From Mermis nigrescens (taxonomy: Eukaryota > Nematoda > Enoplea > Mermithida > Mermithidae): a stretch of 64,000 nucleotides of DNA. Position numbers and translations under genes: made by a program. Location of the stretch: positions 15,162,407-15,226,406 of the forward strand of contig JAVLUZ010000142.1 of the NCBI GenBank assembly GCA_036768485.1. Reading direction: 5' to 3'. The stretch's first letter is position 1, and each line of letters opens with the position of its first letter. The notes under the pieces were generated by a model. It worked only from the letters and a program-made list of their open reading frames with translations. It did not search any database and was not told the origin of the DNA. Shown in pieces: positions 28,302 to 64,000 of the stretch.

Positions 28302-28342
28302 CTGTGAGAGAACAGGGCATTAATTCTTATTTTTATTATTTA

Positions 28343-29593
28343 CTAGTTGAGCTGCCCGGCGTTGCCCGGGCTGAACTTAGGCCTGATAGCTATATGGAAT
28401 TAATATGTCTCTTGTATTTTTTATTTTTCAAGACTTTTGATGTTTTTGGGATATTTCTAAAAAATTGTTGGTACAAACCATATTTTATTTTTTGGATTTT
28501 TTTAAAATGTCTTTTGTCAACCATTTTTTTGATCAAATCCATATTTTTGACGTTACAGAATGGTTTTGAAAATTGTTTAGCCATAATCATATTTATGATG
28601 TTCTGGGGTGTTCTGGAAATTTTTCAATAAAACCCATATTGTTGATGTTTTGGGATGTTTTGGAAAATTTTTCGTCAAACCATATTTTTGATGTTTTAGG
28701 ATGTTTTGAAAAATTTTCCGGTCAAACCATATTTTTGATGTTTTAAAAATTTTTTGTTTGTTGTAGCAAAGGGTGTCATATATCACGTGATATGTTATAG
28801 CTGATGGTATCTCCTATCTTATATCACTGCATGTTATGGCACAGACAGGGTATCTATACCAAACCTATCTTATAGCATTGCCTATCTCGTAGCACAGGGT
28901 ATCTTATATCCCATACTATCTTATAACATTGCCTATCTTGCAGCTCGGGGTATCTTATATCACTTCCTATCTTATAGCATTGCCTATCTTGTAGCACGGG
29001 GTATCTTTTATAACGTTCTATCTTATAGCATTGCCTATCTTGTAGCACGGGGTGTCTTATATCACGTCCTATCTTATAGTATTGCCTATCCTGTAGCACA
29101 GAGTATCTTATATCACGTCCTATCTTATAGCATTGCTTATCTTGTTGCACATAGTATCTCATACCATGCCTATCTTATAAAATTGCCTATGTTATAGCAT
29201 CATTTGGTTAAACCCGTATTTTGATGTTTCACAGTGCCGACCAATGCTATAACATATAACAATGTACATAGTGTCGCCAGGCATGCTCCTCTTGGCCGGG
29301 GTATCCCTATACAAACAGTATAAACTAATTTTTTTGAAAAAAATAGCAAAAAATCGGCCATCTCCCGAAATCGTGGAGGCTTATAGCACAGGGGCCAAAC
29401 CCTGCTCCCTCCCTGCCCAGGGCCAATGGGTGCGTTTGTCGAAATTTCAAGATCGCTACGGCTCCTTCCCCATTGGACCGACCTCGGCCCAAAATATCAG
29501 CCCACCAAATTTCATTGGGCCGGAGCCAACCCGGCACAAACATACGAACATACATACATACAAACAAACAAACTTTCAAAAATATATAGTAGA
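28343..29593 (-). mobile_element. Helitron-type element (family A), reverse copy
   Basis: Read on the minus strand it starts TCTACTATATATTTTTGAAA after an A (29594) and ends with the hairpin GCCCGGGCAACGCCGGGC followed by AGCTCAACTAG and then T (28342). A|TC...CTRR|T, with a GC hairpin ~10 bases before the end, is the Helitron hallmark. Inside are a CAAACAAACATAC-type tract, a 52-bp minisatellite and ~40-bp repeats. No Rep/helicase frame, so non-autonomous. Family A sequence also occurs inside the Helitrons at 41362-46187. Confidence 0.78.
28790..29200 (-). repeat. ~52-bp minisatellite inside Helitron A
   Basis: About eight units whose minus strand reads CTATAAGATAGGACGTGATA, then TAAGATACCCCGTGCTACAA and GATAGGCAATG. 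The same unit is tandemly repeated at about 42830-43330 and 45360-45540 on the plus strand. Confidence 0.9.
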
Positions 29594-41361: not shown

Positions 41362-44300
41362 TCTATAATATTAATTTCGAGTTGTGTGTAAGTGTGTGTG
41401 TGCGTGAGGCAAAAAAGTTTTTACTGGATAATTTTGTGATACTTATATTTTCACTCAATGGGTATTCTCGGGCGCTAATTACAATTTTTTGATTAAAATG
41501 GCTCGATCGGACTCCTGAAACCCGGAAACTACGGCTTTATGTAAAAGGTTTTGGTAGCTCTAGCCGCTTATGTAATTGCCGCAGGGTAAAATTTTAAAGC
41601 CACCCCAGATCAACTTTTTATGCGCTATCGACTGGTGTAAACCACTTTACACTACAGTGTAAACTGATGTTATGCCGGAAGAAAAACGTGATTTACAAGA
41701 GTATTTTATCAAATATCTCAAATCGCAGCAGATAAATTTTTTTGAAGTTCTCACCAATTATTGGATATCTTATGACTGACCTTACTGTAGAATTTGAAGA
41801 AAATTCACGGATTGGTTTCTGAGATACGGGAGCCCAAAGGTACCCTATGCATAGCGTAAAATTTAGGTTTTTGTCTTTTTGCAGAAGCACAGATTGACTG
41901 TTGCTTCCAAAATTTGGCCCTGGGGTTTCTGGGACCGCTGATTCCATATTCGCTACTTTAAATATACGATCTGGCATCGTAAAACATGTATGGGACGGGC
42001 TGAAAGGAAATTACGTACGGGTACTTATAAACTTGATTAATCACTGAAAAAGTGCTTGCACCAAGTCAAAATTTTTGACCTTGTAGACCAGCGCGCGTGA
42101 AATTCAGTGTGAAGCAATCGAAAGCAGCAAACATGCGGCTTTCGAAAGAAAGCAGCAAACATGCGGCTTTCGAAAATACAAATCCAAATGTTTTTGCTTC
42201 TAGCGGCTAATTTGATATGCAACTTTTTGCATTTGTTTACAATGAGGGCAAAGTTGAACATTGTACGCAGTTTTGCCGTTGAGTTGCCTCATAAACGGAA
42301 GAACGAGGCAAAAGAAGACAGAGCAAAATGGAATGAGTCGTTGCTTAATGGAAAGCACTCACAAAATGCACATAAAATAATAATTGAATTATATATGTAG
42401 GTAGGTACTATAAATCTTGATCCTTCTATGCACAATTCGCAAATGACCATAAACAATATGTACTGTAATTTTTATTCAATCGAGCAATAAATGTGAATTG
42501 TGAAAGTTTGTTTGTCTGTATGTCTGTTTGTTCGGGGTTGGCTCCGGCTCCATAATAGTTGGTGGGCTGACGTTTTGACCCGAGGTCGGCCTACCGGGGG
42601 AAGGATCCGTAGCGACATTAAAATTTGATCAACACCACCCAGTCACCCTATACAGGGGTGGAGCGGGAGGCAGCCCTATGCTTAAGCATAGCATTTTTTG
42701 GGACATGGCCGATTTTTCGCAAAATTTTGAAAAAGGAGCAAAACTCGGTTTACACTATTTTCGGGTTATGGTTTTTTCTGAATTTCGGGCGGGTCCGGAC
42801 CCCCCCAGTCCCCCACAGCTACATGCCTGGCTATAAGATAGGACATGAAATAAGATACCGTGTGCTACAAGATAAGCAATGCTATACAATAGGATGTGAT
42901 AGATACCTGTGCTACAGGATAGGCAATGCTATAAGATAGGACGTGATAAAAGACACCCGTGCTACAAGATAGGTAATGCTATAAGATAGGACGTGATACA
43001 AGATACCCCGTGCTACAAGATAGGCAATGCTATAAGATAGGATGGGATATAAGATACCCTGTGCTACTGGATAGGCAATACTATAAGATGTGACGTGATA
43101 TAAGATACCCCGTGCTACAAGATAGGCAATGCTATAAGATAGAACGTGATAAAAGATACCCCGTGCTACAAGATAGGCAATGCTATAAGATAGGAAGTGA
43201 TATAAGATACCCCGAGCTGCAAGATAGGCAATGCTATAAGATAGGATGGGATATAAGATACCCTGTGCTACGAGATAGGCAATGCTATAAGATAGGTGTG
43301 ATATAGATACCCTGTCTGTGCCATAACATGCAGTGATATAAGATAGGAGATACCATCAGCTATAACATATGAGTGATATGAGATATCACGTGATATATGA
43401 CACCCTTCGCTACAACAAACAAAAAATTTTTAAAACATCAAAAATATGGTTTGACCAAAAAAATTTTCCAAAACATCCTAAAACATCAAAAATATGGTTT
43501 GACGAAAAAATTTTCCAAAACATCCCAAAACATCAAAAATATGGGTTTGATTAAACAAATTTCCAGAACATCCCAGAACATCAAAAGTGCTTCAAAGCAT
43601 GGATGTGTCGATAATGTAAAAGTGCTATAACATATCCTGTGCTGTAAGATAGGTGTCCCAAAACATCAAAAATATGGTGTGCACCAAAAAATCTTTAAAC
43701 ATCCCAAAACATCAAAAAAATCGTTTTGACCAAAAAATTTTTTAAACACCCTAAAACATCAAAAATATGGTTTTGACCAAAAAAAATTTTAAACCTTCAA
43801 AAACATCAAAAGTATGGTTTTGGACCAGAAACGCTTTTTAATATTCCAAAACGTTAAAAATATGGTTATGATCAAACAAAATTTTTAAACATCCCAAACC
43901 ATCTAATGGTATAATTTCCAGAACATCCCAGAACATCAAAAATATGATTTAGGATAAAGAATTCTCAGAACCATTCTATAACGTCAAAAATATGGATTTA
44001 ATCAAAGAAATGGTTGATAAAAGACAGTTTTAAAAAATTTAAAAAATACAATATGGTTTTTACCAACAATTTTTTTAAAAAATATACAAAAACATCAAAA
44101 GTCCCGAAAAATAAAAAAATACAAGAGACATCTCAATCCCATACAGTTATCAGGCCTAAGTTCAGCCCGGGCAACGCCGGGCAGCTCAGCTCAGCTATTA
44201 TAATTCGAAAAAATATTAAAATCTATGTACGCATAAAATAATATGAAACAGAATATATAAGGCTTCGTGTCACAGACAAAAATATAAAAACCGCTCGCCG

Positions 44301-44404: not shown

Positions 44405-46187
44405 TCTATAATATTAATTTCGAGTTGTGTGTAAGTGTGTGTGTGTGTGTGTATGTGAGGCAAAAAAGTTTTCACTGGATAATTTTGTGATACTTATATT
44501 TTCACTCAATGGGTATTCTCGGGCGCTAATTACAATTTTTTGATTAAAATGGCTCGATCGGACTCCTGAAACCCGGAAACTACGGCTTTATGTAAAAGGT
44601 TTTGGTAGCTCTAGCCGCTTATGCAATTGCCGCAGGGTTAAATTTTAAAGCCACCCTAGATCAACTTTTTATGCGCTATCGGCTGGTGTGAACCACTTTA
44701 CACTACAGTGTAAACTGATGTGATGCCGTAAGAAAAACGTGATTTACAAGTGTATTTTATCAAATATCTCAAATCGCAGCGGATAAATTTTTAAAGTTTT
44801 CACCAATTATTGAATATCTTATGACTGACCTTACTGTAGAATTTGAAGAAAATTCACGGATCGGTTTCTGAGATACGGGAGCCCAAAGGTACCCTATGCA
44901 TAGCGTAAAATTTAGGTTTCTGTCTTTTTGCAGAAGCACAGATTGACTGTTGCTTCCAAAATTTGGACCCTGGGCTTTCTGGGACCGCTGATTCCATATT
45001 CGCTACTTTAAATATACGATCTGGCACCATAAAACATGTATGAGACGGGCTGAAAGGAAATCACGTACGGGTACTTATAAACATGATTAATCACTGAAAA
45101 AGAGCTTGCACCAAGTCAAAATTTTTGACCTTGTAAACCAGCGCGCGTGAAATTTAATGCGAAGCAATCGAAAGCAGCAAACATGCGGTTTTCGAAAGAA
45201 AGCAGCAAACATGCGGCTTTCGAATGAAAGCAGCAAACATGCGGCTTTCGAAAATATAAATCCAAATGTTTTTGCTTCTAGCGGCTAATTTAATATACAA
45301 CTTTTTGCATTTGTTTACAATGAGGGCAAAGTTGAACATTGTACAAAGTTGAACCCGACGCTATAAGATAGGACGTGATACAACATACTCAATGCTATAC
45401 AATAGGACGTGATATAACATGCCCCATGCTATAAGATAGGACGTGATATAACATACCCAGTGTTACAGGATAGGACGTGATATAACATACCCCATGCTAC
45501 AAGATAGGACGTGATATACCATACCCAGTGCTATAACATATCCTGTGCTGTAAGATTGGTGTCCCAAAACATCAAAAATATGGTTTGCACCAAAAAAATC
45601 TTCAAACATCCCAAAACATCAAGAAAATGGTTTTGACCAAAAAAATTTTTAAACCTCCAAAAACATCAAAAGTATGGTTTTGGACCGAAAAAGTTTTTTT
45701 TAATATTCCAAAACGTTAAAAATACGGTTATTATCAAAGAAAATTTTTAAACATCCCAAACCATCTAATGGTATAATTTCCAGAACATCCCAGAACATCA
45801 AAAATATGATGTAGGATAAAGAATTCTCAGAACCATTCTATAACGTCAGAAATATGGATTTAATCAAAGAAATGGTTGACAAAAGACAGTTTTAAAAAAT
45901 TTAAAAAATACAATATGTTTTTACCAACAATTTTTTTAGAAATATCCCAAAAAACATCAAAAGTCCCGAAAAATAAAAAAATACAAGAGACATCTCAATC
46001 CCATACAACTATCAGGCCTAAGTTCAGCCAGGGCAACACCGTGCAGCTCAGCTAGATATAAAAAATATAAAAACCGCTCGCCGATCCATTGCAGAGTCAT
46101 TCAATTTTTCATACTAATTACTGGTTAAGATATTATTTGTTTACAAACACTCTAGCAGATGGGGCAGCGAAGCGCCCCATTTGCTAG
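44405..46187 (+). mobile_element. Helitron-type element (family B), copy 2, abutting copy 1
   Basis: It starts with the same TCTATAATATTAATTTCGAG at the base after copy 1's CTAG and ends with the identical hairpin and TTGCTAG|T. Compared with copy 1 it has a shorter minisatellite (about 4 units, 45360-45540) and three rather than two copies of a 26-bp GCAGCAAACATGCGGCTTTC repeat. The nested family A 3' end is CAGCTCAGCTAG near 46050. Confidence 0.8.
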
Positions 46188-47215: not shown

Positions 47216-48230
47216 AGTGCAAAGTTGGTTTCTAGGGAGGGGGATACCAACCCTCAGGCACACGTGTGGCCTAGACCTGATGGAATAGAAAAACGAAGAG
47301 GCGAAAAATGGCTTTTTTTTCTGGTTCTCATCACGGTTGACATCGAAAATCGCGAAGAACGACCGGTGCTTATTTTTAGGGGGCGTGATGCATTCTAAGG
47401 CATATTGACTGTAAAGGTAGGTATAGTTTTAAACGATAAATACTGGAGAACATCATGAGTTTCTTTATTCTGAGCAATATAACATATGCGGCTTGATCAA
47501 GATAATTGCATCTAAAAACGGTAAATCGTACACGACTGCAGGAAAGCGGGAAAGGAAGGGAAAAAATAAAATTTAAAAGAAGAAACACACAAGAAAAAAT
47601 ATAAAAAAACAGAATAAAAAAAGAAAAGAATGTGAAAAAGCACGCTTGAATGGAAAGACGGATAAAGTGCATACAGAGCGAACGATACGGAAATTTTTTG
47701 AATGGCGATATTTTTTCATTTGGCACTTGACGGCAACACGAATGCTTTAAAAACTGGGCGGCATGCGTCGACAACCAATCTGAAAAACTGTCCTCGTTAA
47801 AAAATTATAGAGCAAGAAAAGCAAGCAAGCATATATTAAACTATAGAAAATGGAGTATACCTCTTACTCCTCCCAAGCATGTCGGGATCAGACATGCACG
47901 TTAGGAAGGGGGCTTGGGGGTCTAAGCCTCGAAAAATGGAAAAATTCAAAATTTTATGAGGAAAACGAGGCAGAATAAAGGCTAAAAATAGATGAAAATT
48001 GAAATTTTTCTTCAAAAGTACTCGAACTTGGCCAGAAACTGTGAAATTGTGCATTTTTAACGCTATTTCATCATTTAAATAAGTTTTTGAGAGTTAGCCC
48101 AAAAAAGCTTATTTTTGATCCTCCTCTATCACAACTGACTCCAGACCGGTCATGGTGTGCATTCATGGTCCGGACTCCAGAGGGCTAAAATATTTATAAG
48201 TGCTTCAAAAATCAGAGATTCGGTTATAAA
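47216..48230. other. Repeat relics, no gene
   Basis: 47220-47280 is a degraded M1-like end. 47870-48150 is a dispersed element with ATCAGACATGCACG and GACCGGTCATGGTGTGCATTC ends. 47376-47774 has an open minus frame of low-complexity F/L/S composition that I do not accept as a gene. Confidence 0.5.
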
Positions 48231-48494
48231 CATAGGTGGGCAGCAGCAAAATTCTGGAGGGAGGTGCAAGATTCTTCAAAGGTCAAGAAATAATCCTAAA
48301 AATAATGGTGTGGCGAAAAAAACACAATTTTTCAATATTTCTAATCGAGCACTATCCATTGGCATCAAAAATCGCGAAAAACTTTTTCTCCAAAAACTAA
48401 ATTCTGGAGGGTATTTTGATTGGGGATGGGGGTATTCGGCCTTTTTGGTAGGGGGTGCATACCCCCAAACCACCCCTCCCCACGCTCACGTGTG
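48231..48494 (+). mobile_element. M1 hAT-type MITE, complete copy
   Basis: 264 bp from CATAGGTGGGCAGCA to GCTCACGTGTG. Flanks GTTATAAA (48223-48230) and ATCATAAA (48495-48502) match at 6 of 8 bases. Confidence 0.72.
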
Positions 48495-48502
48495 ATCATA
48501 AA

Positions 48503-49174
48503 GTCTCACTGATTGAGGCTCCAAACAATGTTTTGAACGTCTAGCTATGCTAACAAACTAAAATTGCGAAATTTTCTAGACGGATTGTTTTTGCAGCAAA
48601 AATATGGTCAGAGAGCACAGAAGGTGTGAGAGTCAAGTTTGAAAAAGGACTTATATCTGAACTGGCTCAATATCTTTATACTCGTATTAGCTCTTCACGT
48701 CAAACAACATTTTTCGAGTCTTGCTATTAATAAACTTTCGTACTAGAATATTAGAGCTTAAAAAATGTTTCAACGGGTAAAACGATATGGTCAACAAATT
48801 ACTATACTCTCTTTCATTTGTTTGAGAGCTTTTTCAATAAATATGATCCACGTGAATTATGTAGGCAACAAAAGTGGCTTAGAATGCCTGACACAGTTTT
48901 ACCGTTCGACAGCAGGAAAGGTCACTATCATAGATCAATATGTTTGTAAAAAATCACATTAGTCTCAATAACGTAATAGTTTACTGAACTTTTAAACTTT
49001 TTCTAAAAAGTATTGAACAAATCAAACAGACTATAAACGCTGTGAAGCGCGGGAAAACTTTCAAGCCGAAAATTTCGCTGAAACATACTGAAAGCAGCAT
49101 AATTCGAACGTATTTTTCGAAAATAATATTCTGTGGTGCATCAGCATAGGTTCTACATGAATCAAGCTCCCAAA
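48503..49174. other. Unassigned spacer
   Basis: A short plus-strand frame at 48765-48962 has no recognisable features. AGAGCTTTTTCAATAAAT at 48825 is shared with the TIR element at 53301. Confidence 0.4.
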
Positions 49175-49428
49175 CATACGTGGGCAGCATCAAAATTCTG
49201 GATGAGGGGGGTGCGAGATTTTTCAAAGGTCAAAAATGGTTTTAAAAATGGTGGTATGGCGAAAAACACCATTTTTCAACGTTTCTAATTGAGCACTATC
49301 TATTGGTATCAAAAAATTGCGAAATAAAAAAAAAATTCAAAAATTGAATTCTGGGGGGTATTTTGGTTTCTGGGGGGTATTCGGCTTTCTGGGGGTGCAT
49401 ACCCCCAAACCCTCAACGCCCATGTGTG
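49175..49428 (+). mobile_element. M1 hAT-type MITE, complete copy
   Basis: 254 bp from CATACGTGGGCAGCA to GCCCATGTGTG, with perfect flanking CTCCCAAA (49167-49174 and 49429-49436). Confidence 0.82.
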
Positions 49429-49436
49429 CTCCCAAA

Positions 49437-50407
49437 CCTTTGCGTACATGTATGTACATAGCTTAACTTTATTGGGCTCGGATCTGTTCGGTTGATTGGG
49501 ATTTATTAAAATTTTGGTCACTCATTAGTTCCATGCGCACACGGACGTTGAGGTCTAAGGGATTTGGACCCCTCAGAACTCAAATAACCCCCATAATTGA
49601 ATTTCTGTTTGAATAGTCCCATTAGATGCCTAGAATTCGGTTGCTGCCAAACATGTAAAGCAAGAAAACTCTTAGGGAGGCTAAAACAAAAAATTTTTCT
49701 AAAATTTTTTCTTTTGAACTCAAGAACGACGGATACGCGTCATTAACACTGTTTTATTGGCCTTTCTGACGATATTCTTTTATACCCCTCCCAGGATTTG
49801 AACCCGAATCGATATACCCCAGAATTGAATTTGTGATGCTATTTCGGACACGATCTTGCCCCATCCCCCAGAATTTGGCGGCTGCCCATGTACAGTTTGC
49901 ACTATTTATGACGTGGTTGTATAAAGTACAAGTGAGGGAAATTCATTGTATCTGAAAATTCCATTTTAGAACTCGAACATCCTCCAATAAATGTTTGCTT
50001 TTTTAATAAAGATGTGAACTTTGTCATTTGAATTAGAAATAAAAGCTTTAATCAATTTGATTATTTAAAAAATTCAATTTAAATAGAATTAATCCAATAA
50101 TTAAATTTGATAAATTTAATAATTTAATTTCAATAACTGTATGATATTGGTAATGTACATATGTGTACATATTTACCTATATAATTACATAGGTATAGGT
50201 ATGTACACTCGTTATTTCTCAATCTTTTGCGCACTTATGATCCAACAATAAAAACATGCACGCGTCATTATAATACAGAAGTAGGTCCCTGTGATTAATT
50301 AATTATGCATGCAAAACTTGCTAAATAAGCTATCATTTGCAAATGCAGATCGGGACGATTCATTTTTTTGCCGTCGAAAGAGAAAGGACAAGAAGCGATT
50401 TTTTTAG
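49437..50407. other. Degraded M1 copies and AT-rich spacer
   Basis: 49535-49670 and 49800-49890 are diverged reverse M1 fragments (CCAGAATT..GG(T/C)(T/G)GCTGCC). 50040-50260 is AT-rich low-complexity DNA. No gene until 50408. Confidence 0.5.
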
Positions 50408-50540
50408 ATGCAGCATTCAACGATTGAGCACAGGCTATTACTAATATTCTCTATTCTCTTGCTGCAGATCGCTGTGGATCGTGTGCTTGGAGTTTGTGGC
50501 CGGTTTCCAGAAGGGTGTCAAACGTGTAACAGAGGGTCTA
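50408..50540 (+). CDS. Possible first exon of a secreted Cys-rich protein
   Basis: The ATG at 50408 opens a classic signal peptide: charged start, then LLLIFSILLLQIAV, then a polar cleavage region and VCGRFPEGCQTCNRGS with three cysteines. The exon ends phase 1 at GGGTCTA|GTAAGT, a near-consensus donor; beyond it the frame loses this character. A strong internal acceptor (TTCTCTTGCTGCAG|ATCGC) also lies within the stretch, so this could instead be an internal exon starting at 50468. I found no second exon downstream, where MITEs and the gypsy element dominate. The strand is opposite to the large gene. Confidence 0.4.
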
Positions 50541-50680
50541 GTAAGTGTTTTAGGTACACTGAAAAAAATTGTCGTATTTTTGCCCAACAAAGTCGGGTTA
50601 ACGGAATTTTGTGGGGTTAAAGCTTAAATTTCTATGTAGTGGGCGTGATTAAGCCAACTAACTTAGTTACGCCTTGTATG

Positions 50681-50948
50681 CATACGTGGGCAGCAAGGAA
50701 TTTCTGGGGGGAGGGGTGCAAGATTTTTTTGAATGTAAAACAAATGGTCTTAAAAATGGTGGTATGGTGATAAAAGCACCATTTTTTCGACGTTTCTCGT
50801 CAAGCACTATCCATTGGCATCGAAAAATTGCAAAAAAACGAAAAAAATTTTCAAAAATTGAATTCTGGGGGGGGGGTATTTTGATTTCTGGGGAGGTATT
50901 TTTGTTTCTGGGGGCTGCATACCCCCCAAACCCCCACGCCCAGGTGTG
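50681..50948 (+). mobile_element. M1 hAT-type MITE, complete copy
   Basis: 268 bp from CATACGTGGGCAGCA to GCCCAGGTGTG, with perfect flanking CTTGTATG (50673-50680 and 50949-50956). It lies in the presumed first intron of the exon at 50408. Confidence 0.82.
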
Positions 50949-53845: not shown

Positions 53846-54479
53846 TAGAAGGTTAGGTATAACCTAAACGTATTGTTTGTGCAATCCACTATAGGCTTTT
53901 GCGTATAATATTGCTCCGAAGAAAAGCTGTAAGGCACCTACATACATACCTACCTATAGTCTTTTTTAACCCATTTATTTCACATAAGTTTGGGCATAAA
54001 TTCTAAGAATTTTTTCGAAAGTCTGTAAATGTAGGGGCCTGCATCTACAAGAGCGACGCAGACCGGCCTAACATTACCTTCGAGATTTACCTAGGTACGT
54101 AGGTACTTAAGTCTACGCTTAGTGCTGGCCCCGATCGCGCGGCCCTGGATAGCTTTCGATCTTTGGACCCTCAGAGACCTTACGGCTTCGATCCCCTCAG
54201 CCCTAATATTGCTGGCCGCTTTTATGTCGGGTGATCTCAGCAGCTACGCCCTAAGACCTAAGGCTACCTACCTAGTCTCGGTATTTGCCGCGGAGGTCAG
54301 TTGACCTATCTCAAGCTCAAGTTGAATATTTAACTTATTTTCCAATCAGTACCTATTTCAGAAAGGTTTTTTGGTTCCTAATATGTGTAGCACAATAGAC
54401 TATGAAAACAACAACATCGAGCTCTAATCTGATCAATCATCTCTAAAGATTAGATAATATTTTTTGATCAATTTTTGGT
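53846..54479. other. Unassigned spacer beyond the gypsy LTR
   Basis: Short AGGTACGTAGGTACTTA and CTAAGACCTAAGGCTACCTACC runs. No gene recognised. Part may be the outer end of the LTR. Confidence 0.35.
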
Positions 54480-55080
54480 TTGAGAAATAAATTAAGATTT
54501 CCAAATAAAAATAGCAATCATACGGAAATTACCTATCCGTCCACTCGGATGAGTTGCAATCCTCGACGTAGGAGTGGCCGACCTAACCCTCGGTATAACC
54601 GAAAACCCCTGGGTAGGTTTTTCTCTATTTTAATTCGACGAAGAATTCACGGCCTGGTTGCCGGACAACAACAATAAAGCAAAAAGAAAACGAAAACGTA
54701 CGGACTATACAATCGTACGACGGCCAACGAATGCCAACTGCCAACTAAACAACTTAAGTACATTGGCCTCAAGAGACCATTACAGTAAATTAAACAAAGA
54801 TCAAATTAACGTAATACTGATATCACTTTTATCTCAGATCGAATGTTCTCGATTAACGTAAGCGGTATGCATGAAACAATTACTATTATCATACACTTAA
54901 CTCTATGCTACCGGACAAGTATCTAAATGTTTTTTATTATTGAAAATTGGGGAAATAATGGGAAGACCGAAGGCATAGCCCACAGTGCACTATCATAGAT
55001 AGCTACTAGTATTGGCTATGTTATGGCTATCGCGAACTGCTAAGGCAAGTTCGCCTATACGTGTAACTCTCGCAGTTACA
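54480..55080 (-). repeat. 3' LTR of the Ty3/gypsy element (outer edge approximate)
   Basis: On the minus strand the LTR starts TGTAACTGCGAGAGTTACA at 55080, immediately after a purine-rich tract. TGTAACT/AGTTACA makes a 7-bp hairpin. An AATAAAA polyadenylation signal lies about 140 bases in. The outer boundary cannot be fixed because the 5' LTR is outside the window; 54480 is only a working limit. Confidence 0.55.
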
Positions 55081-55095
55081 CTCCCCCACGTATAG
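55081..55095 (-). promoter_or_regulatory. Polypurine tract for plus-strand DNA priming
   Basis: On the minus strand GTGGGGGAG sits directly before the LTR start TGTAAC, the standard position of a retroelement polypurine tract. Confidence 0.6.
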
Positions 55096-55980
55096 AAAAA
55101 AAATTTGAAACGAAGTGGAGAATTTTTTCGAGGGGTACACCAACGCCACTAGCGTCTACAACGCTTCTACAACTCGGCACTCTGGCGTTCGCAACGCCTC
55201 TACTCTGGCGTCCGCAACGCCTCATCCTGAGCGAACGTGAAAAACGAAAATAAAAGAACGAAAAAAATAACAAATAACGATAACAAATAACGGTCAACGC
55301 ATGACCTCGTTCGCACTCAGGAAACTCTCGAGCAACACTCTCAATGGCGCTAGGTAGAACTATATTGTTGCCCGAGTAATGATGAACTCCGGTCTTGGAC
55401 AGCATTGCATAATATTCGATTATGCTGTCCAATTAGCCTCCTTCAGTCCCCGGGTAATGAGAAAAATTTTGAATTGAAAAAGTTTTAAGATTGGGTATAA
55501 ATTAACCCCTTGTCCGTTAAAGAGTTAAGGTACCATAATAGTAACACCGCTAATTGAGCAAAAGAAAAATTAAGACACGGAATGATAAGGCAAAATTATG
55601 CTGAGCAAAATTAAAGTCACTGACGAGTTAAAACAAGAGGTAACGATAAAAACGAGAAAAAATGGCAAATTATGCGAGATAACGGGGAAAATACGAGCAC
55701 CGTCAAAGAAAAATTTACAGCAAGAAAGAAAAAATGACAAGAGAAAAAATTACACAGAAAAGAAACGATACGTGAAGTCCTGGAATCCACATTAGGACAA
55801 AAAACGAAAAAATGACAAAAAGCTGCTGGTCAAATTCGATGCCGATCGCAGAGTTCCAAAAAGTTCTGTACGTCAAACTTGTAAATTAATATTGATCCTG
55901 ATAATTGGCCTTCGAGCCATGCGATTTTCTGCGACGTCGTTGGCGTTGAAAATAATCGCGATCCGATTCAGGTTCGCGAC
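55096..55980. other. Non-coding 3' region between the extra ORF and the LTR
   Basis: 55140-55230 has repeated CTAGCGTCTACAACGC / CTCTGGCGT(C/T)CGCAACGCCTC units. 55600-55790 has a short plus-strand K-rich frame that looks accidental. No further gene was recognised. Confidence 0.45.
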
Positions 55981-56243
55981 CATACGTGGGCAGCAAAAAA
56001 ATTCTGGGGGGGGTGCAAGATTTTTTTGAAGGTCGAAAAATGGCCTTAAAAATGGTGGTATGGCGATAAAAACACCATTTTCGACGTTTCTCATCAAGCA
56101 CTATCCATTGGCATCAAAAAATTGTGAAAAAAACAAAAAAAATTTTCAAAAAATTGAATTCTGGGGGGTATTTTGATTTCTGGGGGGGGTATTTTGGTTT
56201 CTGGGGGGTGCATACCCCCAAACCCCCCTCACGCCCAGGTGTG
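55981..56243 (+). mobile_element. M1 hAT-type MITE inserted in the gypsy element
   Basis: 263 bp from CATACGTGGGCAGCA to GCCCAGGTGTG. Flanks TTCGCGAC and TTTGCAAT share 5 of 8 positions, with differences of the C-to-T or G-to-A type. It cuts the tail of the retrotransposon, so M1 moved after the gypsy insertion. Confidence 0.75.
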
Positions 56244-56279
56244 TTTGCAATGCGTATTCAAACGTTTGCAATACTGGTA

Positions 56280-58035
56280 TGGCGATTGCCTAAGCCCGTA
56301 CATATGTTGGCGTAAGCGTCGATGTGGATCGACTGGGCGATCGTCGTCCTCAAAATCGTTGTCGTCCTCGTAGTCATCCGCGTAACGACGCGGTATAGAT
56401 TGCACCGGAGTAAATAATTGCTCCGGCGTAAAACCATAAGTTTGTTCACGTGAAGATTCGCGTGGACGCTGTTGTTGTTGCGTAACAGGCCACGGTTTAG
56501 GTAAAAGTGGACCTGGTCGAAGTTGTGGCTGATAGATGGTTCTATTTCAACCACAGGTGAATCGTAAGGAATATCGGTCTGCGAAGAAATCGCAGAAGCT
56601 GGGGTACTTGAGCTAGTTGGTTTGGACTTTGGTTCGGTATCAGGTGCATTGACCGGGCCTGAAACTGAGTCGGCAACGGCCTGCAAACCCTGAACTTGTA
56701 GGTCAGGATTGTCGAACACATTAGCGTGAGCCAACGCTTCCATTACTGAGGCAATGGTGGTGGCTGCAGCTATGGCTGCTGGCAGTTGCGGAGCTGGACC
56801 ATAAAAGTCCTCAACTGTGAGTAACTCTCCGCCATCAGAATCAACTTCGACTTCAGTCACCGTGCTGGTTGACTGACCTCATGGTGGTTTGCGCAATGAC
56901 AACGGTATACGCGCTTTGGCTTTTGGGCCGCTAGCTTTAACGTGCCCTTCATCGTTTTTAAACGAAATTTGCATAGGCTTTCTATCGTCGGTAATGCGAT
57001 TATTCTGCGAGCAGCCTTCTATCAATATGAAGACATCAATAGTGATCAAGGCATCCATCGCTAAATAATGTTGCATATCCTGAGTTAAGGGTAAACTCCA
57101 CGCCTGTCCAAAATTATCAGGCGCGGTAGGATCAATAGCCATATCAAAGAAAAATTCAGCTAAGCGCTTTAATGTATGTGAATGCACTGTGATACGGAAA
57201 CGACGAGTAAACGCTCTCGCCAAGGGCTGAATATCAATAAAATTCGCACTGAACGGATCTTTCCAGTGCAGTTTGTTGCGAATTTCGGCGTCAGGAATCG
57301 CCAAAATTTCCTCAAAAGTTGGTCCGTATACGTGAAAATACGCAAGTTGATCTTGCGTAGGGTCATAACAAAATATATACACATTTGGTAAATGCGTTTT
57401 GAGCAACTGGTGAAGCCCAAACGGAGGTTGTGGGAAATTTGCAAGGTCCCAACAGAACACATGACCGTTCGCGCTCGCAACTTGGACGTAGCATACAAAT
57501 GGGCCATGGAGGTCCTGATAGGTGGGACACAGCTGCTTAAAACGCAGATCCCAGGTCTTATAACCTCTGCCTTTTCGGTCATTAACAAATTCGGAATCAT
57601 AGCCTAAGAATAATGTGCCATTTGTCATGTTTGATGGTTGGATTAAAGCCAAAATGGCCCCAAAAGACTCCTGATTGGTGGTGATTAGAACAGTGGATAG
57701 AAGTCTATTCTTTGGCACGCGTAGGGTTGCCAAAGGAAATCTATCAAATCTGTTCTCCCACCAGAGCTCTTGGTCGTTAATACGTTTACTATGATTTGTG
57801 GCTATATGTGTTGCTTTATGTTTTATCATTTTTGCGGTGAGTGCCTCTAAACCGCCATCACGACTATGGTCATTTTGTGGCAGCGGGTCTGGTACAACCA
57901 ACCCCGCTCCAACGCCATATTGGTCAAAGCCGAACGAAACTCATCTAGGGACGCGGGATCACGCCCCTCGAATTTGCATCGGCGACCAGCTGCCTCCAGC
58001 AATGCCTCCTTGCTTGGGGTACCTTGTGCAGCCAT
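56280..58035 (-). pseudogene. Extra ORF of the gypsy element: DEDDy 3'-5' exonuclease-domain protein, damaged
   Basis: Starts at the ATG at 58035 (ACCCATGG context), 59 bases after the integrase stop. After ~45 codons the frame moves by one base near 57905-57940. The long frame 56879-57901 then carries the exonuclease core: GYDSEF (D102, E104 counted from 57901; Exo I), DPTQDQLAYFH (D184; Exo II), NFIDIQPLA (D223), and HYLAMDA (Y279, D283; Exo III) preceded by AWSLPLTQ. This DxE...D...YxxxD layout, with a W..PL...Q lead into the last motif, is that of RNase D/WRN/EXD2/MUT-7 exonucleases. A single TGA at 56879 interrupts the frame, which resumes with acidic Ser/Pro/Ala sequence, shifts again near 56530, and ends in a Q-rich and Asp/Glu-rich tail. 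The intact protein would be ~580 residues. Known family role: removing nucleotides from 3' ends of DNA or RNA. The role in the element is unknown. Confidence 0.8.
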
Positions 58036-58062
58036 GGGTCTGCAAAAGGGAAAACATTAGAT
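58028..58062 (-). promoter_or_regulatory. Putative 3' splice site just upstream of the exonuclease ORF
   Basis: On the minus strand ATCTAATGTTTTCCCTTTTG is followed by CAG|ACCCATGG: a branch-point-like CTAAT, a pyrimidine tract, the AG, and four bases later an ATG in strong context. This would let the ORF be expressed from a spliced subgenomic RNA, as env is in gypsy-type errantiviruses. The matching donor would be near the 5' LTR, off the window. Confidence 0.55.
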
Positions 58063-58093: not shown

Positions 58094-59915
58094 TTAATAG
58101 ACGTATAGGCGCGCAGTCCTTAGCTTTTGTTCCCTGCCCGGTAAATCCTCAAAACTTATGACTACTGCCGGGGCAAGAGGGCGATGTGGTAATTTAACCA
58201 ACACAAAATCGCCAGGAACGTACACATGTTTTTCCACAATCAAATCAGAATAGGGAAGTTTAGGCTCAGGCAGAAGTCTATTCCGGTGAACGTGATGAAT
58301 GATTAAAGGGTTATAGACATAAGCGATTTTCGCCATTTCAGGAGTAGGTAAATCGATAATTCGATATGGACCAACACGCTTGGGTGATAGTTTACCGATT
58401 TCAGGTTGAATCACTGAGGTATTGTTAAAATAGACTATATCCGAGAGATTAAAATTTGTGTGCATTACGGACTTGTCATATTGTGACTTTTGCTGCTTAC
58501 GCGCTTGAGTTAGATTTTGAGACGCAATTTCATGCAGATCTTGCAACATCAGCTTTAAATCAATGACGTATTTTTCCGCAACAGATGGTAAATTTGGATT
58601 TATCACGAAGTCATCTATGAGTAAAGTGTCAAGTGGAAATGCTGGTTCGCGACCATAAAGCATTTCAAAAGGAGATATATTAGTTGATGATTGCGGAGTC
58701 GCGCGGTACGCAAATAACACAAAAGGTAAAAATTGTTCCCAATCATACTGGGAACGCGCGCTCAGCTTAGACAAACCATCAATCAAAGTACGGTTATAAC
58801 ATTCCACCGAATTTTATGCAATAAAAAATATTTACAACCCCATATCACCCCCATCACACTGGGGGTGATATGGGGTTGTAAATATTTTTTGAAGGTTTAT
58901 AGTTTACAAACTTCCGAAATTAGGGTAGATGTAAAGTTTGACCCCTGATCTGTCAAAAATTTCTTGGGAACTCCATAACGTGGTATAATTTCTCTTAGCA
59001 ATAAATTTGCGATAGTTGTTGCCTTTATGTCAGAAACAGCAAGAGCTTCCACGTATTTTGTAAAATAATCCATAAAAAATACAATTTGATCGTTTCTGGA
59101 GGGGATTGTGGCATATGCAAACAATCGCACGCAATGAGTTCAAAGGGTGCGGATACTTCGATTGGTTGCAATGGAACGGATGTGGAATTTAATGCGACCT
59201 TACGTTGTAAGCACACATCACAATTCCTACACCACGCAATCACATCATTTTCCATGCGCGGCCACCAATAACGCATTTGTATGGCGGGCAAGATTTTGCG
59301 CGATGAAAAATGAGCTCCAAAAATAGAGTCATGAAATTCAGTTAATATAAAACGACGCAAAGATTTGGGTATGACTACTTGATGAGCGACAGTTGGTGAA
59401 CGCTTGGGTTGGAATCGACAAAAAAGTACATCATTTATGAGAAAAAATTCGTCACGATATTTTTTCGTTGTTAAGTCATTCAATGCAATGCGAATTTTAT
59501 GCAATTCGTCATCTGCACGTTGCTCAGCGAGTAAACGCGCAGGTGTTAACATTTCAGCTTTTTCAGCATCGGTAAGTAATAGGCGTTCACAAAATGTAGG
59601 TGGTTTTGTATTAGTAGGATCAGTTTGCGTAGTAGGATTATTATTTTGCGCATTTGAATGATTAATTGGTGCAGTAGGCGCGTTATCGCACGATCGGTCA
59701 GGTGGAACCGATTCATCATCTGACTCAGAGTCTTCCGATTCTAAATTTGCGATGTTAACAACATTTTTGCGCTCTAATTTATATTTGCGTTCTGCATGAT
59801 CATATTTAGGATGTCGTGAAAGAAGATCAGCTGCGCAATTATATGCACCAGGAACATAAACAATATCATATTCATATTCCTGTAATTTGAGACCCCAACG
59901 GCGTAATCGACTCAA
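58094..59915 (-). pseudogene. Ty3/gypsy integrase, disrupted
   Basis: 59025-59915 begins with the end of RNase H (LLSRHP) and carries the HHCC zinc domain (EFHDSIFGAHF...YWWPRM...CRNCDVC) and the first catalytic aspartate (ACDCLHM). After a frame change near 59080 comes FFMDYFTKYVEA and LTDQGSNFTS with the second aspartate. The part expected to hold the catalytic glutamate (PYHPQTNG-type) is missing between 58900 and 58807; a 68-bp perfect palindrome lies there. 58094-58807 continues with CYNRTL, FAYRATPQSSTNISPFEMLYG and the C-terminal SH3-like region (GPYRIIDL). It would insert element DNA into the genome; here it cannot work. Confidence 0.88.
58823..58890. repeat. Perfect 30-bp inverted repeat with 8-nt loop, inside integrase
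   Basis: Arm 58823-58852 (AAAAAATATTTACAACCCCA, then TATCACCCCC) is the exact complement of 58861-58890. The loop is ATCACACT. The sequence replaces integrase coding. It may be a tiny MITE or a repair-generated filler. Confidence 0.93.
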
Positions 59916-60999
59916 TGGGTCTTTAACGTTTACTAGCCAGGTTAACGCTTGATGATCAGTTTCGACAATAAATTTTTTACCGTAAAGATAATGTCAATAA
60001 TGCTTGATGGCCCACACTACCGCTAACGCTTCTTTTTCGGAGTAGCATAGTTACATTTGGCAGAATTTAGCACGCGACTAGCGTAGCTAAGAATAAAACG
60101 ATTTTTGGATGGTAAATGTTTTTGCGTCAAAATAGCACCTAATGCATAGTTACTTGCGTCAGTTGTTAAAATAAATTGGTGCTCGTCATCGAATTTTGGT
60201 AGTTGCAAAATAGGTGGGGACGTTAATGCTTTCTTCAGAAGCTCAAAGGCGGTTTGGTGTTCAGCCTTCCAGCAAAATTCGACATCTTTACGAAGAAGAT
60301 GGAATAGCGGTTTAGCGATTTTAGCAAGATCTTTAACGAATTTCTTAAACCATTGGACTAAGCCAAGGAATTTCTGTAAGGATTTAACGGTTTTTGGTAC
60401 GGGAAACGACATTAAATCCGCGACTTTGGACATGTCAGGAGCAATGCCCATTGCACTTATGTTGTGGCCAAGAAATTTTACCTCTGCATGCGCAAGATGG
60501 CATTTATCAGGCTTTACACGTAAGTTTGCCTTTTTAAGAGCAATAAAGACATTTTCAAGATCTTTTAAATGTTCTTTGAAAGTACGAGAAAAAATAATTA
60601 TGTCATCAATGTAAACGAGACAAGATTTCCAATTTAGACCTGCAAGCACAAGCTCCATTAGTCTTTGGAAATCTGCGGACGCATTTTTAAACCAAAAGGT
60701 AAAACTTCAAATTCGTAATGACCAACAGGACATATAAATGCAGTTTTTTCGTGAGATTTATTATCGAGTGGAATTTGTCAGTATCCAGATTTTAAATCTA
60801 GTGTGCTAAAATATGCAGCATTGCCTAAAGTATCAAAATAATCGTCTAATTGTGGAAGAGGATAAACTTGCGTTTTAGTAACGTCATTTAACCGTCAATA
60901 ATCGACGACTGGCCTAAGGGAACCGTCCTTTTTCCCTATGAGAAATAATGGACTTGCCCATGGGCTAGTTGTAGGTCGAATAATTTTATCCGCAAGCAT
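59916..60999 (-). pseudogene. Ty3/gypsy reverse transcriptase and RNase H, damaged
   Basis: In order: [48 protein letters not shown] (catalytic YIDD), CHLAHAEVKFLGH, then RNase H with TTDASNYALGA, FILSYASRVLN, and TDHQALTWL. Stops occur after IIN, VDY and SGY and in HY*HYLYG. One frameshift is in an A-run at about 60684-60690 and another around 60040. Most stops can be explained by a single C-to-T or G-to-A change. Confidence 0.92.
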
Positions 61000-62896
61000 T
61001 TAATTTATAATTTTCTGCATAGATTCTCTTCTAGAATGTTCAACACAATAAGTTTTTCCAACAACGGGTGGATTATCCCCTGTGTCAATATGATGTTTCA
61101 TCAAGGGGATACGTCCAAGAGGTTCGTTTTTTAATGCAAAAATTGAGTCGTATTTTAAACATAGTTCACGAATTTGTTGCTGCTGTTGAGAATTAACGGC
61201 GGAGCCGTTTAAAGCTTTGTTTATTGATGCAAAAAGATCAGGTGTCCTATCATCAAGGGATGAAACATGTGACACAACTTCGGCATCAGTGGTTAAAGAA
61301 CCTATTATTTCACCAGAGTCAATGCGAATTGGTGCTTTAGAGATGTTACAGATGCGAACAGGTATTAGAGGTTGTGAAGCATCGACTATAGACGGAGCAA
61401 CAAAAAGTGAAGTTTTTCCCATGAAATCGGGATTAGGTTCAAATAATGCGAAATCAAAATTAAAAGAACCGTGACTTATAAAGCCAGGTGTAATTAATTC
61501 ATGCCTAGGTTGTATAATAACAGGCTCAGGTAACGAAACATGCACACACACAACACCAGAGGTAGTTGCGTTGGGTTTCGCGCGAAATTGCAATTTTTTG
61601 TGAGATGAGAGTAAATTAATCTTTATGCCGTTTATAAAAGCACAGTGCTCAATAGGATTAACCCACATGAGTGCGGATTCGCAAAAATCATATCCTAAGA
61701 GCATGTCTTCCGGCAAGTGATCAATTATAGATACTGAGGTAGAAATAGATTGTTCAGCGATGGTTAAAGTCATGTTTACTCTATAACGAACTACTGCGGT
61801 GATTTCGCCTACACCATGTACGACTTGTGAGACTTGTTTAGGTGGTAAATTAAAACCAAGACGTAAGAATGCAGATGTGGTCATCATGGTGACCTGTGAA
61901 CCCGTATCTATGAGAGCAGGTATGTCAACGCCATGAACTTTAACGAGAATGGTAGGTAAGTTAGTCCCAGCATGGCTTACAATAGGAATATTAGGATCTA
62001 AAGTCTTAGATGCATGTAAATTGATCTTTTCATAAGTTGCGAGACGACGTTGTAAACATTCATACTTTTCGAGAAATTCTTGCGACGCGAATAGATTAGG
62101 ACGCGTGCTAGATTCTGGCCCTTTCGCAGTAACCGTGTTTACATCATGAGGAGATGTAAGGGTTGGCTGCGGTGGGGGCGCATTCATGGTGGGTTGGTTA
62201 TCTGCAGTATATGTGACATACGGGCGATTAAAATTGTTATTGCTGCGGTAATTGGAATTATAGTGTGTCCCACGCTGTTCATTTGGGAATTGCACAAAAG
62301 GTGTATTTTGGCGCAGTTGATTATTATAACGATTATTGTAACGCAAATTTGGATAATTAGCACGCGAATTTTGGTTATAATCATTAAGATTTTGCCTAAA
62401 ATTCGATCGTGATTGCCTCGATTCAAGGCGGTTATCATTATTCGCATAGTTAGGTGAACGATGTTGACTAGAGTTATGATATCGTGATTGAGATCGATGT
62501 CTATTTTGCGAATTTGAACGCGATGGCGAACGATTTCGACGCAAAAAAGAACGCGACTGGCTGTGATTGCGAACCATAGAATTATTATTTCGATCAGCTT
62601 GGGTATTATGAGTAGCATTATTAGACGTTTCTTGCCTTTGCCGCGTGAAACATTCCTCATAAATGTGACCTATGCGCTTGCAAAAGGTGCAATATTTGCG
62701 AGAAGAACCTTCTGGTTTCTCAGCACGCGACGAGCGATGAAACGTTCTATGACATGAACAATTTGCATCGTTTTGATTAGATGCACGAGGAGTATCTTCA
62801 GGTACTGCGCTGCCTACGGGAGCAGCTGTTACCGATATGTAAGGCGTTACTGCCTTTTTATCCTCAAATTCTTTGTTAGCAAATTCAGGTCCAAAA
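61000..62896 (-). pseudogene. gag nucleocapsid tail and aspartic protease
   Basis: A long open minus frame. Near 62690 it encodes the zinc knuckle CTFCKRIGHIYEEC (CX2CX4HX4C). An RS/Asn-rich basic tail follows (RSFLRRNRSPSRSNSQ at about 62500). Near 61900 is the protease active site PALIDTGSQVTMM, with a later HLPEDMLLGYDF resembling the second conserved protease block. The frame then enters the pre-RT segment (LGRIPLMKHHIDTGD) and stops just before RT. It would bind element RNA and cleave the polyprotein. Confidence 0.88.
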
Positions 62897-64000
62897 ATTC
62901 AGCTTATGATGCTCTAGGTTTTTTGTGATATGCCTCTTTCAAAATGTGTGGTAATAAACCTTCTTTTAATTGATGTCGCATTAAATTATTGAAATGTGGC
63001 GAGTCAACTTCAAGATAAGGATCAGATTTAATTAACTCTTCGCGAAGCGAGGATAATAAGCTTTAACCGATTCGTTAGGCTGCTGTTTGTGTGACAAAAA
63101 ACGATTAAAGAGCGCACCGGTGTCCATTGGACAGAATTCGGTTATTAGCACTTGTTTCGTTTTTGAATACGATTGTTGTATATCAGCAGGTAACGAATGG
63201 TATAAACGCATAGCATAAGGATCAAGAAATCCAGTTGCGAATTTAAGACGATCAGCTTTGTCAATATCATAGGTATTGGCAAGTGATTCGAATTCTGCAA
63301 AGTATGCTTTTATATCCATTTTATCGCCATCAAAAAATTTTTTATTAGCAATTGCAATTTGCATCTGTGTCAAAAATGGTCCGCGATTCAAAGAATCAGC
63401 GAGACGTGATTCACCACGCAAGCTTTCAGATGAAGAACCTGAACTATAACAATGACGTCGTCTGCGCGATCTGCTTTTGCGACGCAAGCGACGACTGCGC
63501 GGGCGATCATAGCTATTAGATGAACTTTCATCAGAAAATTTGACATGTTTTCTCCTACTAGATGATTCATGTAGGGGTGCAGATTCATTTTGCAAATTTG
63601 CAGATTCATTATTAATACCAGATAAATTTATGTCAACTGGTTGCATTTCGATATTAGAAGAATGCAAAATAGAAATATTAGGTGGTATTTCTACGTTTAT
63701 GGGATTAGGTACATAATTATTGAGTAAGATTTCTCCTTGAGGTGAAAAATACTGCAGCGGTGGTGGGTTCAATTGCTGCTGCAAATTCGTGGTAGAAAGG
63801 TTAGGTACGAAAGAAGGCGCATTACGATTTAAGGACAGCGAAGGCCGAGATCGCGACGTCTGCAAAATCGGTACCGACGGCTGCGAAATTGTAGGTATAT
63901 TTTCCAAAAAACCCGAGTTTTGCACTGGTTGCAAACCCGTGTTTATAGGATTCTGTGATAAATTAGATATCTCAGGCACGCGATTCGTACAATTTTGAAT
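62890..64000 (-). pseudogene. Ty3/gypsy gag (capsid), N-terminus off the window
   Basis: 63032-63979 begins with a Pro/Ser/Asn-rich region, then an Arg-rich SRRRRHCYSSGSS tract. Next comes a capsid-like helical part (FFDGDKMDIKAYFAEFESLA, LKFATGFLDPYAMRLYHSLP, FLSHKQQPNESVKAYYPRFA), typical of gypsy gag. The frame breaks near 63050 but continues in another (LIKSDPYLEV, LKEGLLPHILKEA) until about 62900, where it breaks again. Assembles virus-like particles in active relatives. Confidence 0.82.

Follow-up and report, generated by a model that had tools for sequence, protein, structure and literature searches.

A predicted DEDDy exonuclease gene downstream of integrase in Ty3/gypsy-type retrotransposons of the nematode Mermis nigrescens

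The third gene of a gypsy-type element

The 64,000-nt stretch of the Mermis nigrescens genome analysed here (contig JAVLUZ010000142.1, positions 15,162,407 to 15,226,406; henceforth the window) carries on its minus strand a gypsy-type long terminal repeat (LTR) retrotransposon, in which Pfam searches recognise frames for protease, reverse transcriptase (RT), RNase H and integrase upstream of a putative exonuclease frame. A preliminary description of the window had pointed to the motifs GYDSEF, DPTQDQLAYFH, FIDIQPLA and AWSLPLTQ...HYLAMDA after the integrase. All of them are present in the minus-strand open reading frame (ORF) at 56879-57940 (353 aa), this frame does follow the integrase on the same strand, and the upper limit given there for the feature, 58035, is exactly the start codon of the gene, hereafter ORF3. 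In related copies of the element, ORF3 encodes ~1390 aa, of which the N-terminal third is the predicted DEDDy exonuclease domain; the remaining, C-terminal region has no PDB match by sequence and no Pfam match over the cut-off.

Below, A denotes the family of the window element, B, C, E and F the related exonuclease-bearing lineages, and D a gypsy-type element devoid of exonuclease. In the same genome, the A query yielded 115 listed matches at 82-100% identity, including the window itself and some exact duplicates, from 2599 first-look candidates, and the B and C queries yielded 100 and 130 listed matches from 673 and 333 candidates, respectively; these figures, which include fragments, exact duplicates and places shared by B and C, only bound the copy number. 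The counts are inflated because exact duplicates, decay marks included, arose in assembly or by segmental duplication, which tempers any argument from abundance: the window copy (L009) recurs base for base on another contig (L010; 4059/4059 bases), probably through assembly, and L017-L019 are identical over 4032/4032 bases.

The integrase-encoding end of pol lies just upstream of the exonuclease, on the same strand, in 30/30 A loci fetched with 1.5-kb flanks, and likewise in B1, B2, B3, C1, C2, C3, C4, E, F and L049; the tally leaves aside L002, L045, L046 and L048, where the upstream flank is too short. With C2 and C3, near-identical by eye, counted once, the integrase-exonuclease order recurs in ten sub-lineages (A and nine others), among which exonuclease identity goes down to ~21%. 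The order protease-RT-RNase H-integrase was found in the elements scanned with Pfam, and paired LTRs delimit one A copy (~831 nt, 97.4% identity over 643 nt), one B copy (594 nt, 99.3%, with the target-site duplication GTTG) and B2 (an identical pair of 118 nt). These observations support the exonuclease being a stable gene of the element family and not a single captured exon, in line with the earlier proposal of a gypsy element with a DEDDy exonuclease ORF. Judged from the predicted proteins, many gypsy-type lineages of the Mermis genome, forming a whole group, have it as their resident third gene. On the opposite side of the ledger, two PF01612 matches, L001 and L005, resemble ordinary host genes; L005 has no match to two B pol queries, a comparison outside which L001 lies, and L001/L052 we take, by its motifs, to be EXOSC10. 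At C48:2709184-2725763, a B element is nested in element D, which has its 3' LTR within 34 nt after the pol frame and no space for an ORF3.

Predicted fold, conserved residues and selection

Taken alone, the window frame does not reach the PF01612 cut-off (12.8 versus 23.6 bits), and a profile of eight A copies retrieves no DEDDy relative from the PDB by sequence. Because neither is convincing by itself, the case for an exonuclease rests on the family. Divergent relatives in the same genome score 40.4, 35.3 and 26.3 bits against PF01612, over the cut-off, and 23.4 and 15.0 bits, under it. The preliminary description had named the lack of a significant PF01612 match as refuting, and this applies to the window frame if it is taken alone. 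The A profile aligns with the profile of these relatives over 221 columns (profile-profile E-value of 9.8e-17). Against solved structures, the profile of the divergent frames matches WRN (E-value of 2.8e-10) and EXD2 (4.9e-8), and in a sequence-profile search WRN (1.5e-12) and EXD2 (1.1e-9) are both ahead of the MUT-7 homologue. A predicted model of the window protein, with a predicted template modelling score of 0.61 and a mean predicted local distance difference test score (pLDDT) of 55.6, retrieves WRN first and then other DEDD exonucleases in a structural search, with likeness to Egalitarian and EXD1 too. The model is not independent of B and C, because its alignment held B and C rows. Finally, L049 (L049:3-998, minus strand) is a 332-aa open frame after integrase in which the catalytic residues are, by eye, apparently lost, and may possibly be a pseudo-enzyme. 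The low score of the window frame, the lack of a DEDDy match to the A profile in the PDB, the low pLDDT, the shared alignment and L049 all weigh against the exonuclease assignment.

The catalytic residues are nearly constant. Across 42 A copies (38 distinct), taken from the 115 scored matches of 2599 candidates, the five positions are conserved as D in 40/42, E in 41/42, D in 42/42, Y in 42/42 and D in 42/42, the departures being D to N (2/42) and E to A (1/42). The nine lineages compared all keep E, D, Y and the last D, with the second aspartate between E and Y counted as this D of Exo II, and the first D is changed only in C1, to E; the A residues align with those of the clear PF01612 proteins from other elements. 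Two features set the element proteins apart from WRN: an R ahead of the domain that never varies, and ~20-30 extra residues between Exo I and the following strand, in which W and G-x-F are invariant. Such shared non-catalytic features favour a single origin of the element exonucleases. By predicted fold and conserved residues, the ORF3 product is a putative DEDDy exonuclease, and would be expected to have metal-dependent 3'-5' exonuclease activity.

The exonuclease evolves under purifying selection. The pairwise ratio of nonsynonymous to synonymous substitution rates (dN/dS) is 0.118 over 630 pairs of 36 distinct stop-free A copies, which are the best-scoring matches of one lineage, a sampling that limits the reach of the estimate. 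The ratio is 0.21 for pairs with dS <0.1 and 0.10 for pairs with dS >0.8, the pattern of constraint during replication combined with neutral decay after insertion. Six A loci open in all three parts (L015, L017-L019, L021 and L032, three of them identical) gave dN/dS of 0.06 for integrase, 0.12 for the exonuclease and 0.13 for the part of ORF3 that comes next. In the same loci, dS is roughly doubled in the exonuclease relative to integrase (0.30 vs 0.15), perhaps owing to recombination between copies or element families, the sole explanation that we can offer.

Integrase and exonuclease identities are correlated over 36 lineage pairs (r = 0.908, with 0/5000 label shuffles as high), mainly through close pairs, which lessens the weight of the coefficient; this nine-lineage comparison leaves out the second A copy as well as D, the local outgroup element. 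A smaller, six-lineage comparison gave r = 0.92 (3/720 permutations as high) and no clear integrase-exonuclease relation among between-lineage pairs alone. The pol tree recovers B (100/100), C (80/90) and E/F (100/100), and the exonuclease tree B (94/95), C3+C4 (80/98) and E/F (100/100), with C1 unplaced. In integrase, A shares 41-44% identity with C and E/F but 33-34% with B, whereas the exonuclease tree weakly joins A and B (74/94). Neither tree fixes how the groups A, B, C and E/F branch, which counts against any firm history, so that one old acquisition and exchange between lineages are both possible. Judging from these alignments, the predicted exonuclease is passed on together with pol, at least within lineages. 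Since it is under purifying selection in the lineage tested and resident across lineages, it must do something that the elements need.

Layout, expression and the question of an envelope

The window copy is a broken relic, with a frameshift between 58035 and 57940, a TGA stop at 56879-56881, a deletion in ORF3 and an insertion (Table 1). It holds only the 3' LTR, the 5' LTR being expected past base 64000, and is 92.6-96.1% identical, over the element pieces aligned by blastn, to a related insertion at C48:12.09 Mb; in a related copy, the element is ~14 kb long.

Table 1. Features of the gypsy-type element (window positions, unless a locus is named)
Feature	Position	Strand	Basis
3' LTR of the window element	54026..54862	-	blastn against the paired LTRs (~831 nt) of a related insertion
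Stretch from the end of ORF3 to the 3' LTR; upper end is the last part of ORF3	54863..55980	-	inside a match of 96% identity to the copy at C48:12.09 Mb
Later insertion of a small repeat family (others at ~48.2, 49.2 and 50.7 kb)	~55980..56243	.	missing from the related copy; repeat families D1-D4
ORF3, 3' part	56243..56536	-	93.9% identity to the related copy
Internal deletion junction, ~2.27 kb of ORF3 gone relative to the related copy	56531..56536	-	positions at which L039 and L040 align to the window (blastn)
ORF3, 5' part, ATG at 58033-58035	56531..58035	-	same ATG inside long open frames of L014, L017 and L021
Predicted DEDDy exonuclease open frame (353 aa), TGA stop at 56879-56881	56879..57940	-	ORF reading and homology
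Exo I D-S-E (D101 and E103, protein read from 57898)	57590..57598	-	D in 40/42 and E in 41/42 copies
Exo II aspartate (D183, DPTQDQL)	57350..57352	-	42/42 copies; invariant across nine lineages
Exo III Y-L-A-M-D (Y278 and D282)	57053..57067	-	42/42 copies; invariant across nine lineages
TTTTCCCTTTTGCAG, putative 3' splice acceptor, 4 nt upstream of the ORF3 start codon, overlapping the pol end	58040..58054	-	same place in 30/30 loci
pol, C-terminal part of integrase	58094..58813	-	ORF reading, Pfam, comparison of loci
~40-nt insertion within integrase	58809..58849	.	gap between L039 matches on the window
End of RNase H and integrase H2C2 domain	59025..59993	-	Pfam
RT and RNase H	60023..60706	-	Pfam
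End of gag and aspartic protease	61000..62898	-	Pfam protease; zinc-knuckle-like CTFCKRIGHIYEEC by eye in the frame
B-element frames with a glycoprotein domain between gag and protease (exonuclease after integrase)	L044:2379-7499, L043:4268-8500	+	PF24664

The small repeat family inserted in the element has a G-rich tail (TTCTGGGGGG) and is present in four copies in the window (48215-50914 and 55965-56250), one of them inside the element. The sequence adjoining the 3' LTR at C48:12.09 Mb recurs, with internal near-tandem repeats, at window positions 28334-28912, 43248-44202 and 45562-46055.

ORF3 and the end of pol overlap in A, in different frames. The ORF3 ATG is preceded by the acceptor-like string TTTTGCAG; TTTTCCCTTTTGCAG-ACCC stands before the ATG at the same place in 30/30 loci, with point variants in four, and CCTTTTGCAGACCC followed by ATG is found in 29/30. 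The conservation of the string is not independent evidence for an acceptor, because it also codes for pol. The same string contains what may be a slippery heptamer, T TTC CCT as read in frame with pol. ORF3 may thus be expressed apart from pol either by splicing to an acceptor just before the ATG or by -1 frameshifting; our best guess is splicing, which appears likelier because the exonuclease gene begins after the pol stop in those B, C, E and F loci that were read. The accessory protein of Cer1 in Caenorhabditis elegans is described as made from a spliced mRNA (PMC10309623).

The preliminary description had assigned the exonuclease frame to the env position. This holds for its place, but B elements have, alongside the exonuclease, an env-like glycoprotein at a different site, between gag and protease. 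Scanning of the ORF3 frames revealed no Pfam glycoprotein domain, and hydropathy exceeds 1.6 just once in A, inside the Exo III helix, and nowhere in B and B2. An env function for the A ORF3, considered as a candidate, is accordingly unsupported, with neither a glycoprotein domain nor a transmembrane segment by hydropathy. In the B (1707 aa) and B2 (1411 aa) frames, a match to the viral fusion glycoprotein family PF24664 (E-values of 9.3e-16 and 1.1e-17) comes before protease and RT, with a strong hydrophobic segment after the domain and a weaker one before it. Because this glycoprotein is placed between gag and protease, ORF3 is no substitute for env in B. Anakin is a reported case of an LTR element that captured a chuvirus envelope (PMC12440569), but env is described as sitting downstream of pol (PMC5718144), and the gene order of B, as predicted from its frames, appears unusual. 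A frame after integrase should not be labelled env without a domain test.

The C integrases (L067:96-2999, minus strand, and L068:198-2852, plus strand) end in a PWWP domain (PF00855, E-values of 1.2e-14 and 5.5e-10), at the place of the chromodomain of chromoviruses; the A integrase has a weak PWWP trace (E-value of 0.25).

Possible roles and comparison with known elements

We consider it likely that the feature represents the opening part of ORF3 in a Ty3/gypsy-type LTR retrotransposon and specifies a resident, selected DEDDy exonuclease that would trim the 3' ends of the element's own replication intermediates. For the trimming of cDNA or RNA 3' ends of the element itself, considered as a separate claim, we put the chances at about even. 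The exonuclease would remove nucleotides from cDNA ends before integration, or from RNA or primer ends. WRN is a DNA-end exonuclease, and RNase D and NrnC are RNA exonucleases; because the nearest solved relatives include enzymes of both kinds, the substrate could be DNA or RNA. ORF3 might instead be a counter-silencing factor, trimming or degrading host small RNAs or their precursors, like or against MUT-7/Nibbler; against this, both WRN and EXD2 outscore the MUT-7 homologue (1.5e-12 and 1.1e-9, as above), and we regard this role as unlikely. Another possibility is that ORF3 serves chiefly in nucleic-acid binding or packaging and that its catalysis is secondary or has been lost, as in EXD1 or Egalitarian. 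The long extra region of ORF3 in A, the conserved C-terminal region in B, the apparent loss of catalytic residues in L049 and the structural likeness to Egalitarian and EXD1 would all fit such a role, which nevertheless seems improbable to us given that the catalytic residues are invariant over nine lineages save for one D to E.

The cellular character of the domain is the sole point in favour of a recent, independent capture of a host exonuclease by this one element. We find such an event very hard to credit: ten sub-lineages carry the exonuclease at the same place, it is congruent with integrase within lineages, and none of the matches listed with A, B or C as query is the host-like L005. 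Among the matches listed there is also no host gene close to the A family. The capture from this host suggested earlier is, at least as a recent event, not supported, the lineages that share the predicted gene being only ~21-32% identical in the exonuclease. A chance frame, or host exons beside a retrotransposon, would explain why the window frame scores under the PF01612 cut-off, and yet has next to no probability in the face of a multicopy frame with a constant place, purifying selection and a fold match. Copy number, constant place and conservation across lineages led us to reject chance frame, host exons and single recent capture alike.

A broader scenario, which we think less likely than not, is that the resident exonuclease has belonged to the core genes of a large animal gypsy-type clade since before the split of the lineages and is shared with rotifer elements by descent or exchange. 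Part of this clade would be retrovirus-like elements of the order gag-glycoprotein-protease-RT-RNase H-integrase-exonuclease, in which 3'-end processing would have its own obligate enzyme, of a sort that the replication cycles of other retroelements are not known to use.

DEDDy ORF3s have been described by Rodriguez, Kenefick and Arkhipova (2017; PMC5408684) in the Juno and Vesta LTR elements of bdelloid rotifers, and DEDDy ORFs also in Terminons, so that the earlier statement that no recognised gypsy lineage has its own DEDDy exonuclease has to be withdrawn. According to that report, the rotifer ORF3s were acquired at least twice, show no significant departure from neutrality and were suggested to act in 3'-end processing, and their benefit to the element was left undecided. 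Like the present elements, Juno and Vesta have a separate ORF3 after pol, its product is a DEDDy exonuclease akin to RNase D and more than one LTR lineage carries it, and their ORF3s are said to be without transmembrane domains, as is the case here by hydropathy (PMC5408684). Differences include the motif, which according to the text is changed to DEED in the rotifer proteins, whereas DEDD is kept in the present elements, and selection, with no significant departure from neutrality reported for the rotifer ORF3s (PMC5408684) versus a dN/dS of 0.12 here. A dUTPase in pol is reported for three rotifer-specific lineages (PMC5408684), and Pfam shows none in the pol frames that we scanned. The A ORF3, of ~1390 aa and from another animal group, is likened to those of Juno and Vesta by description, not by sequence.

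Among other systems, Terminons, giant Penelope-like elements of rotifer telomeres, share DEDDy ORFs but are not LTR elements (PMC6431247, PMC5408684). Dada DNA transposons have their own DEDDy domain, with a proposed role in 3'-end processing, inside the transposase and not as a separate gene (PMC3706591). CERV of Cer1 is likewise an accessory protein of a nematode LTR element, described as a novel protein for genomic RNA export and not an exonuclease (PMC10309623). WRN and EXD2 have the same catalytic layout and are the best sequence-profile matches among solved structures, WRN being the best by structure as well. In the open-access literature we found no nematode precedent for an element-borne DEDDy gene, and the word 'exonuclease' is absent from the main text of the Mermis genome paper (PMC10989877). 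Searches of protein databases and viral contigs returned no relative, in collections that we take to be mostly prokaryotic or viral and of little bearing on other animals.

An element-borne DEDDy exonuclease is, therefore, not a rotifer oddity. The benefit to the element, raised for rotifers, can now be addressed with 36 distinct copies at a dN/dS of 0.12 and nine lineages that keep the catalytic residues, and why a retrotransposon needs a 3'-5' exonuclease becomes a testable question. As far as predicted proteins and gene order can tell, the Mermis elements are the same kind of thing as the rotifer elements; what is new is the other animal group, the several lineages, the purifying selection and the 1390-aa ORF3.
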